In this document: in pieces, positions 150 through 2,795 of the stretch
Layout: every line of letters begins with the position of its first letter
How positions within the stretch are numbered: the first letter of the stretch is position 1
Source: an uncultured bacterium
GTDB lineage: Bacteria > Patescibacteriota > Minisyncoccia > Phycocordibacterales > GWA1-40-21
Assembly (NCBI GenBank): GCA_903832855.1
Contig: CAILDB010000006.1
Location: 1 to 32,142, forward strand
DNA: 32,142 nt
Direction: 5' to 3'
Program-made: the position numbers and the translations under genes
Notes under the pieces: generated by a model
What the model was told of the DNA's origin: nothing
The model's input: only the letters and a program-made list of their open reading frames with translations
Database searches by the model: none

Positions 150-509
150 CTAAATAATTGTTGAAGTTGAACACTCTTCCCCGTCTGATATTGTATCTGC
201 AGAACAAGTAGTAATAGTGCAATCTTTTTCACCAGTTTCGCAGATTAGCGGATCACAACCTTCTACTGCTGGGTCACAAAGTTCAATATTAAAAGCTTTC
301 TTTTCTATCTTTTTATAATAATCTATCTGGGCAGGACAGTCAGTGCCTTCGCAAGGTGCATAGAAACAACTTTCTGTTTGTGGGTCACATTTTATTTGAG
401 CAAACACCAAATAATCTTTTTTGATTACATATTTGTGAAAAGTCACACCAATAGAAATGACAATCAAAACGCCAAATATCCAAAACAAAATTTTTGATTT
501 TTTATTCAT
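150..509 (-). CDS. Small membrane-anchored Cys-rich protein, hypothetical
   Basis: 119-aa ORF; N-terminal hydrophobic segment, then CDPQTESC/CDPAVEGCD-type repeated Cys motifs. Confidence 0.65.
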   Translation of the reverse strand: MNKKSKILFWIFGVLIVISIGVTFHKYVIKKDYLVFAQIKCDPQTESCFYAPCEGTDCPAQIDYYKKIEKKAFNIELCDPAVEGCDPLICETGEKDCTITTCSADTISDGEECSTSTII

Positions 510-512
510 ATT

Positions 513-1172
513 TTACTTTAATGTTTCAACAAAATTTTTCTCAATATCTTCTAAGCTTTTGTTGAAGACACTCAAAAATAACTTATCAAAAGCATTGCAA
601 GAATAATTTGACTTGAGTTTTTTAACTAGCTCAACAACCTTATTCAAGGAATATTTATTTATTAAAAAATCCACAAACAAACAAGAGTAGGCGTATGCAC
701 TATAATTTGAATACTTATTCCAGCCATATTCAGTTGATATTTTTGATAGATAATCATTTTCTACAAAAATACCTTTATCCCTGTATTGTGTCATTTGGTC
801 TGCAAGATACATCGATAATCCTTCATTTAACCACATTGGTATCATTTTTCCATCAGAGATTTTATTTATGTAAATATGAGATATCTCATGTTTCAATATT
901 CTTGGAAAATCATCTCTTGGATGTGAGCTGTATTTTTCAAAAGAGTCCTCGTGAATAATATCTATCTCATTTTTATCAGATGTATTTCCAACCTCCCAAT
1001 CAGAAGTTTTCCTATTCAGTTGTTTATCAAAACTTTTTCTCGTATCGTGTAATCTAACTTTTATTAAAAAATCGGTAGATATTCCTAATCTACTTTCAAT
1101 ATCTGGGATTATTTTATCCAAAATAATCTTTGTATTTTCTATATTTTTTCCTAAAACCTGTACTTTACTCAT
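513..1172 (-). CDS. Gluzincin-type metallopeptidase-like protein (HExxH ... NEG)
   Basis: KHEISHIYINK ... MWLNEGLSMYLADQ matches the HExxH + downstream Glu arrangement of peptidase MA-like families; start set at MSKVQVLGKN, not at the ORF-track start, which runs into the upstream terminator and peptide gene. Confidence 0.7.
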   Translation of the reverse strand: MSKVQVLGKNIENTKIILDKIIPDIESRLGISTDFLIKVRLHDTRKSFDKQLNRKTSDWEVGNTSDKNEIDIIHEDSFEKYSSHPRDDFPRILKHEISHIYINKISDGKMIPMWLNEGLSMYLADQMTQYRDKGIFVENDYLSKISTEYGWNKYSNYSAYAYSCLFVDFLINKYSLNKVVELVKKLKSNYSCNAFDKLFLSVFNKSLEDIEKNFVETLK

Positions 1173-1199: not shown

Positions 1200-1237
1200 A
1201 AAAAAAGGAGTAACGGTGATATTCTCACCACTACTCC
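1200..1237 (-). terminator. Rho-independent terminator of the radical SAM/peptide operon
   Basis: GGAGTAgtGGTGA-gaata-TCACCgtTACTCC followed by T7 on the minus strand. Confidence 0.85.
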
Positions 1238-1258
1238 CCCGGGCAACCCCGTCTGGCT

Positions 1259-1432
1259 TCATTTGTTGCAGCCAGTGTTCTGACAGGAAACACACTGCTG
1301 GCAGCCCCGACAGGATTGTGCCAGGACTCCATCCATGATCCTCACAGGAGTGTTTTGCTCACTCCTGTCAAAACCACGGTTGAGGAGCTCATGTGTATCC
1401 GCAAAGAACTCAGATACCAGGTCCGTTTTCAT
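1259..1432 (-). CDS. Putative RiPP precursor peptide, Cys-rich core
   Basis: 57-aa ORF absent from the ORF track: MKTDLVSEFFADTHELLNRGFDRSEQNTPVRIMDGVLAQSCRGCQQCVSCQNTGCNK; AAGGAG 8 nt upstream of ATG; 34 nt after the maturase stop; terminator follows. Confidence 0.78.
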   Translation of the reverse strand: MKTDLVSEFFADTHELLNRGFDRSEQNTPVRIMDGVLAQSCRGCQQCVSCQNTGCNK

Positions 1433-1466
1433 GTTTTTTCTCCTTTTTTAGGTTTATCTTACTGCA

Positions 1467-2795
1467 TCAATTACTAACTTTCTTCACCTCCTTTCTTTTA
1501 ACTATCCCAGAAAAAACCAACTTCTGTATCACAGGTTCGAGCATCTCTTCTGTGTGTCCAGTCTTTTTCGCTAATAAACCGAGAGAAAAGCTCTCGAACT
1601 GTTTAATGAGCGAAACAAAACCAAACCCCTTCGAAGTAAGATACTCTAGCTTGCCATATACAGATACAACATACCCGTTCTGTTCCTCTCTGATTATACA
1701 ATGTTTGTTGAATTCAAACAAGTCGTTTGCGTCCAACAGAACTGGACATTCTCCTCGTGGTAACAGGGCCACTCTTTTCGGATCAGATATTGGTTCTGTC
1801 ATATACATGTCTTGCCCATTGTATAATCCAGTGGTAGTTCTCGCTGACATGCGACATCCACCTTCACACACCATAAGGGCATTACATTTTATACATTTCT
1901 CTGGAAGGATTGACGGCGATGACCATTCCTTCATTTTTTCCCAAACATCCAGAAACTTATCTGGCAACACATTACCGTATAACACATCAGAGTGTATACA
2001 CGGTCTCATATCACCTCTAGATGAAATGGCACAAGAAGAAACAGCCGCCGAGCACATTCTATTACCAAAAAAACGTACGAACTCGTTCTCATCTTCTGGT
2101 CCAAAAAGGCATCTCGCCAAGGGTTCAAGTACATCTACAGTAAGGGTCAGTTCTGAACTAATCCTTATGAGCTCCCTCAAGCAAACCTTGCATTCCTCCG
2201 CCGATAAACATAATGGAATGTTTGATTTACAAGACGGTACGATTGGTCCAGAACAAAAGTTTTTTACACCAATGTCTTTGACCAACTTAGCCGTATCCCA
2301 TAGAGAAGACAGACTGATCTTTGATACTGGCATATTGACTGCAACATCAATTCCAGCATCAAGGAGGTTTCTAATCCCGTCAATCGTTTTGGCGAAACTA
2401 CCTCCTGGTCCAGCTATAGAGTTATGTACTACTTCCGGTCCAAGAACAGAGATCAGGGCATGGTTCAAACCACGCCCAGCCAGAGTCCTGGCATCCTCTT
2501 TTTCGATGAGTACGCCGTTACTGTTTAGACCTATGTCTATATCAAGCCGGTGTAGCTCAGACACTAAGTCAAACAAGACCTTCTTCCGTAACATTGGCTC
2601 TCCACCAGTGAGCGTAACGGAGCCAACTTTCGCAGAATGGATTTGTCTGACAATCGTTATGAACTCGGCTGTACCAAGTTCATCATTGGGCGGATTCTTA
2701 TCCTTTCTCCAATAATTGTAACAATGCCGGCAAATCTGATTACAACGCTCAGTCAATTCAATCTGGACATCTAACGGAGACGATAGCCTATTCAT
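1467..2795 (-). CDS. Radical SAM/SPASM domain peptide maturase
   Basis: CNQICRHC (CxxxCxxC); GGEP; SPASM Cys pattern CAISSRGDMRPC ... CIKCNALMVCEGGC (CX2CX5CX3C) ... C; C-terminal winged-helix-like tail. Confidence 0.93.
   Translation of the reverse strand: MNRLSSPLDVQIELTERCNQICRHCYNYWRKDKNPPNDELGTAEFITIVRQIHSAKVGSVTLTGGEPMLRKKVLFDLVSELHRLDIDIGLNSNGVLIEKEDARTLAGRGLNHALISVLGPEVVHNSIAGPGGSFAKTIDGIRNLLDAGIDVAVNMPVSKISLSSLWDTAKLVKDIGVKNFCSGPIVPSCKSNIPLCLSAEECKVCLRELIRISSELTLTVDVLEPLARCLFGPEDENEFVRFFGNRMCSAAVSSCAISSRGDMRPCIHSDVLYGNVLPDKFLDVWEKMKEWSSPSILPEKCIKCNALMVCEGGCRMSARTTTGLYNGQDMYMTEPISDPKRVALLPRGECPVLLDANDLFEFNKHCIIREEQNGYVVSVYGKLEYLTSKGFGFVSLIKQFESFSLGLLAKKTGHTEEMLEPVIQKLVFSGIVKRKEVKKVSN

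Follow-up and report, generated by a model that had tools for sequence, protein, structure and literature searches.

A putative radical SAM/SPASM peptide-modification cassette with an adjoining HExxH metalloprotease gene in Patescibacteria

What does a radical SAM/SPASM enzyme encoded beside a short Cys-rich peptide do in a bacterium with a 746 kb genome? The stretch of DNA analysed here (the window, 32,142 nucleotides) is contig CAILDB010000006.1 (C6) of assembly GCA_903832855.1, a Patescibacteria (CPR) genome that is 99% complete. Genomes of Patescibacteria measure about 1 Mb and hold very little dedicated metabolism, and keeping a radical SAM peptide pathway in so small a genome implies that what it makes repays the expense, possibly through the interaction with a host cell. 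A first-pass annotation, made from the DNA letters, had read the locus as a RiPP system in a reduced CPR-like genome; the size and affiliation of the genome bear out the latter part. As for the former, sequence and structure comparisons make it very probable that the locus is a RiPP biosynthetic cassette, in which a precursor leader would be bound by an RRE-like domain, the Cys-rich core modified and the leader removed by a gluzincin. The features, all on the minus strand, are as follows.

1467–2795, minus strand: radical SAM/SPASM enzyme, putative peptide maturase, 442 aa (Pfam matches, fold search, invariant Cys)
1470–1745, minus strand: C-terminal RRE-like (PqqD-type winged-helix) domain, maturase residues ~351–442 (predicted topology)
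1259–1432, minus strand: putative precursor peptide, 57 aa, with a 40-aa Cys-free leader and the core CRGCQQCVSCQNTGCNK (AGGAG, homologous peptides)
1200–1248, minus strand: predicted intrinsic terminator, hairpin GGAGTAGTGGTGA GAATA TCACCGTTACTCC followed by T7 (folding of the intergenic region)
513–1172, minus strand: HExxH gluzincin-type metallopeptidase, 219 aa, probable leader peptidase (Peptidase_MA_2, structural model, recurrence)
150–509, minus strand: 119-aa Cys-rich protein with a hydrophobic stretch at its N-terminus (ORF list)

On re-reading, the coordinates, strand and sequence first reported for the maturase and peptide genes were all correct, as were the 34-nt gap between them (1433–1466), the ribosome site (AGGAG, within the AAAAAAGGAGAAAAAAC that precedes the peptide ATG) and the strong terminator. 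The statement that neither a protease nor an exporter adjoins the pair fared differently in its two halves: no exporter is conserved there, but the gene that follows on this strand (513–1172) matches Peptidase_MA_2. The 119-aa ORF (509–150, minus strand) begins 3 nt past the protease stop; it belongs to no Pfam or NCBIfam family and has no counterpart among the repeated neighbour families of other loci.

The maturase matches the Pfam families Radical_SAM (1.3e-23) and SPASM (2.7e-4), and it scores highest among the three radical SAM proteins found in a search of the whole genome. The radical SAM motif CX3CX2C lies at residues 18–25 and the SPASM-type Cys at about 248–314. Ten Cys are invariant across 22 homologues (C18, C22, C25, C229, C248, C266, C301, C304, C310 and C314), which agrees with the first identification of this gene as a SPASM radical SAM enzyme. 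The conserved SPASM-type patterns are C248-x12-G261-x4-C266 and C301-x2-C304-x5-C310-x3-C314; of the seven SPASM-type positions, six never vary, whereas the final canonical Cys is not conserved, C229 being invariant instead. D329 is nearly invariant in the homologues. In PqqE, an Asp is a ligand of the second auxiliary cluster and, by analogy, D329 may be an auxiliary-cluster ligand in the maturase. The nearest solved structures by fold search are the RiPP maturases SkfB, SuiB and PqqE. Against NCBIfam, the enzyme scores far under every cut-off, and the SCIFF maturase model is absent from the best 25 of the 92 models matched.

The C-terminal domain (residues ~360–434) has a predicted b-b-b-(b)-a-a-a order, which is the RRE topology, with a block pLDDT mostly between 75 and 91, and it carries the signature R-x-E-x-F-G. 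A profile built from 17 such domains gave a weak match (E 0.037) to SuiB residues 24–67, within the N-terminal RRE region of that enzyme; its remaining matches were generic winged helices, and a Pfam scan gave no PqqD match for this family. The predicted topology and the weak profile match make this a candidate RRE-like domain that would probably bind the leader.

Homologous maturases were gathered by score alone and their flanking DNA was examined afterwards; 26 loci from Patescibacteria genomes were kept, each with a full-length enzyme including the C-terminal domain and with enough contig around it. A short Cys-rich ORF occurs near the maturase in all 26 intact loci. It is located 3' of the maturase in 24 of them, close to the gene end in 23 and at 453 nt in L147, while in L149 and L155 it lies past the protease gene, on the opposite side of the maturase. 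An automated rule (a ribosome site, a start at most 110 nt from the gene end and at least three Cys near the C-terminus) was passed by 20 of the 26 maturases and by 5 of 160 control genes (p = 3e-17); a version with at least four Cys was passed by 0.08% of sequence shuffles. The four control hits with at least four Cys adjoin second radical SAM or HExxH genes, and so look like further cassettes. In L033, the contig end falls inside a matching leader. The closest maturase homologue, about 60% identical (L032/L171, genome G714; L032 5983–8824), has no C-terminal domain, and no hidden peptide was found on checking that locus; nor was a clear Cys-rich peptide seen beside the more distant homologues in L039, L041 and L177. 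As a separate observation, the gene next to the L032/L171 enzyme encodes a PLP-decarboxylase-like protein with the C-terminus EVCTSGGNSPACWS, possibly a protein-borne substrate.

Several neighbourhoods contain more than one such gene set. Second Cys-rich peptides accompanied by further radical SAM and/or HExxH genes were seen in L037 (5100–6711), L170 (4972–6691), L172 (7367–9670) and L176 (3235–3885); in L172, the second radical SAM enzyme lacks the C-terminal domain and instead matches PqqD weakly at its N-terminus. Mutually related genes that by eye resemble ATP-grasp ligases were noticed less than 5 kb from the cassette in L156 (4910–5905), L158 (7168–8145) and L170 (750–1727), an arrangement that may point to RiPP islands, hybrid or clustered.

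The 40-aa leader of the window peptide contains no Cys and carries the motif FFADTHELLNR. The corresponding pattern FFxxxxE-h-h-N-R (FFxxxxExxNR) is shared by the window, L159, L034, L035 and L037, and a GFxSLL-like motif is found in nine other loci. These motifs were spotted first and shuffle-tested afterwards; an unbiased motif sampler, also run, scored 169 on the real leaders and 139–152 on 15 shuffles. Cys makes up 0.1% of leader residues and 27% of core residues, the cores also being rich in Asp (18%) and Asn (10%). Across the whole family, cores range from 7 to 47 residues with 3–12 Cys, and given this wide variation a single chemistry for all members is not assured. Among five relatives of the window's clade, a 15-residue core (CQCVNCQSCDNKCNK and variants) shows a mean identity of 75%, compared with 49% for the maturase and 42% for the protease in the same clade. 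The window core, C-x2-C-x2-C-x2-C-x4-C-N-K, aligns with the C-x-C-x2-C-x2-C-x3-C-N-K of these relatives.

Two close pairs allowed the reading frame itself to be assessed. The L172/L175 peptides give dN 0.026 and dS 0.197, and the 25-aa peptides of L153 and L154 (MFVSIYIDENQVDQNVSFCCQNCGT and VFVSIYIGENKADQNISFCCQSCGT) differ at 11 synonymous and 6 non-synonymous positions (pN 0.10, pS 0.79); the peptide frame is under purifying selection in both. The first-pass annotation had itself named homologous maturase loci lacking a short Cys-rich ORF, or a peptide frame that is not conserved, as findings that would speak against a RiPP; the presence of the ORF in 26 of 26 loci and the conservation of the frame in both pairs support that reading. 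Searching 60 related genomes (11 from the same family) with the window peptide returned no match except itself, and its relatives were reached only via the maturase homologues. NCBIfam gave no match for the window peptide and chance-level matches only for ten relatives; the earlier remark that the core pattern was not recognised as a named family holds for the cassette, which matches none in NCBIfam or Pfam. Horizontal transfer was considered from the GC contents of the maturase (0.43), peptide (0.51) and protease (0.28) genes. This contrast was dropped as evidence of transfer, because in three of four relatives examined the genes differ by a comparable margin (~0.10–0.12; 0.05 in the fourth).

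The intergenic region after the peptide gene folds at −29.2 kcal/mol, its hairpin (within 1173–1250) being followed by T7. Of the 14 loci in which the protease follows on the same strand, 13 have a strong hairpin, usually with a T-run, between peptide and protease genes, and the stems share no common sequence between the loci compared. Such a hairpin would fit a strongly expressed maturase and peptide, with the protease expressed apart from them and at a lower level. An AT-rich stretch resembling a −10 element was noticed by eye, in several loci, a few bases ahead of the protease ATG, a position that would make a leaderless protease transcript possible.

The protein encoded beyond the hairpin has HEISH at residues 95–99 and Glu117 in a WLNEG motif, and it matches Pfam Peptidase_MA_2 at 8.7e-12, above the curated cut-off. 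All 14 members of its cluster match this family, with H95, E96, H99 and E117 invariant. An HExxH gene adjoins the cassette in 24 of 26 loci. Genes of the Peptidase_MA_2 type account for 12 of these, a second type, whose members scanned belong to no Pfam family, for 11, and a third type for one. The HExxH motif and a downstream Glu are invariant in both main types. The motif occurs in 25 of 45 genes less than 700 bp from the maturase and in 2 of 82 genes more than 2.5 kb away; L153 and L154 have no HExxH gene and carry in its place a gene that looks, by eye, methyltransferase-like. The model of the window protein (pLDDT 87) resembles collagenase H, M61 and M1 peptidases, with a Foldseek probability of about 1.00 and modest E-values (best 0.002). 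The HExxH motif, the downstream Glu and the match of the predicted fold mark the Peptidase_MA_2 gene as that of a gluzincin peptidase. From locus to locus, this place is taken by HExxH families with no relation to one another, every one retaining HExxH, a pattern suggesting that proteolysis is what they have in common.

Relatives of the maturase were found in 4 of 197 genomes of the order (E < 1e-50), 16 of 387 genomes of the class (E < 1e-100, with a clear gap before the next score) and 11 of 381 genomes of the phylum (E < 1e-60). The distribution is patchy, and the gene set recurs in at least two dozen related ultra-small bacteria. A search of a plasmid collection returned nothing but pseudo-SAM proteins of Halobaculum. 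Some more remote homologues were seen outside this set. Two IMG/VR viral contigs (L141 and L142) encode radical SAM/SPASM homologues without a Cys-rich peptide, in operons that by eye resemble sialic-acid-type sugar biosynthesis. The alphaproteobacterium PG1894_72 (L040, 822–3248) has a distant maturase homologue split between two pieces that overlap; a 70-aa peptide encoded upstream of it ends in repeated CSAC units (CSACSACSACSSACCACTACGSW). In a Nanoarchaeota genome (L041, 5782–7888), a distant homologue is followed by an overlapping HExxH gene, and a 65-aa ORF just upstream ends in NRCVWGQCVYRT, a core of a different kind.

In the pathway we propose, the precursor leader would bind to the RRE-like domain at the C-terminal end of the maturase. 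The enzyme would then modify the Cys-rich core, and the likeliest reaction couples Cys sulfur to a carbon of a nearby residue; the predicted bonds are thioethers, as in sactipeptides or ranthipeptides. The HExxH gluzincin of the neighbouring gene, acting in the cytosol, would cut off the leader, while the hairpin after the peptide gene would set the expression of enzyme and peptide apart from that of the protease.

The cleavage step could be read otherwise, in that the HExxH protein, rather than acting as a leader peptidase, might also modify the peptide, as do the HEXXH hydroxylases of recent RiPP pathways, which depend on alpha-ketoglutarate. A step that needs O2 would sit awkwardly next to a radical SAM enzyme, which is sensitive to oxygen. 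HEXXH proteins annotated as peptidases in RiPP clusters have turned out to be alpha-ketoglutarate oxygenases, including some that are fusions with radical SAM domains (PMC12636437). We regard a hydroxylase as unlikely here: none of 29 HExxH proteins matched the HEXXH-hydroxylase model of NCBIfam, the 14 proteins of one cluster all match Peptidase_MA_2, the window model resembles true gluzincin peptidases, and unrelated HExxH families alternate in the slot. A leader peptidase is preferred. Still less credible, in our estimate, is a peptide that stays unmodified or acts through disulfides or metal binding, like a metallothionein, with the radical SAM enzyme working elsewhere. The cores are indeed hydrophilic and rich in Cys, Asp and Asn, and their Cys spacings (C-x-C, C-x2-C) are of a kind usual for metal ligands; what speaks against this reading are the strict pairing with a SPASM enzyme bearing an RRE-like domain, the conserved leader motif, and L032/L171, where the RRE-like domain and the peptide are missing together.

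A further alternative concerns the role of the product and leaves the pathway as proposed. That it is a bacteriocin-type sactibiotic, directed by an episymbiont against its host or competitors, is conceivable but doubtful. Known sactipeptides of similar architecture are antibacterial, and the patchy distribution (4 of 197 order genomes, 16 of 387 class genomes) would suit such a function. No exporter or immunity gene recurs in the cassette neighbourhoods, however, and within the window's clade the core is conserved; many relatives have strongly acidic cores. This conservation and the missing exporter favour a product whose target or role stays constant over a fast-evolving bacteriocin; metal binding, a signal or a cofactor are candidates. 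More speculatively, the cassettes could amount to a RiPP class of their own, new and found in ultra-small episymbionts: Patescibacteria and, through a distant relative, a Nanoarchaeota genome. Its defining features would be a C-terminal RRE on the SPASM maturase, a Cys-rich core more strongly conserved than the enzyme acting on it, and gluzincin leader peptidases that can replace one another behind a terminator. The product would then be a conserved factor, intracellular or at the surface, perhaps a peptide that binds metal or has a redox function, rather than an antibiotic. We hold this broader proposal tentatively. The gene set is compact (maturase, precursor and peptidase) and comes with 26 natural precursor variants, which makes the crosslinking chemistry and the leader peptidase directly testable.

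Among known systems, SkfB, SuiB and PqqE share with the window maturase a radical SAM domain, a C-terminal cluster-binding region and a short peptide encoded nearby as the substrate, a putative one in the window. They use an RRE, to which the RRE-like domain of the window enzyme would correspond. The position differs: the RRE is N-terminal in SuiB and SkfB, a separate PqqD protein otherwise, and the RRE-like domain of the window enzyme is C-terminal. Ranthipeptides and SCIFF resemble the window in having a Cys-rich core and a SPASM enzyme encoded next to the short precursor. A Cys followed by Asp or Glu, as in ranthipeptides, is present in many relatives of the window peptide but not in the window itself, where the PapA-type CX3D is absent because the core has no Asp or Glu. 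The SCIFF precursor has six Cys, whereas the window peptide has five, with no NCBIfam SCIFF match above the cut-off. The arrangement of HExxH protease and terminator lies outside the definitions of both groups. In Patescibacteria and CPR, graspetides, modified by an ATP-grasp ligase where the window cassette has a radical SAM enzyme, have been reported (PMC8939145); they were the sole RiPP class, and radical SAM RiPPs were not found, in the open literature searched, which covered few subscription papers. The PQQ and mycofactocin pathways likewise combine a radical SAM/SPASM enzyme, a short precursor and a peptidase without a dedicated exporter, and have an RRE where the window has the RRE-like domain; the window differs from them in its Cys-rich core, in having no downstream redox enzymes and in its peptidase family. 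On comparative grounds, the placement of the cassette within the general class of radical SAM/SPASM RiPPs, and the pathway logic that it implies, appears well supported.
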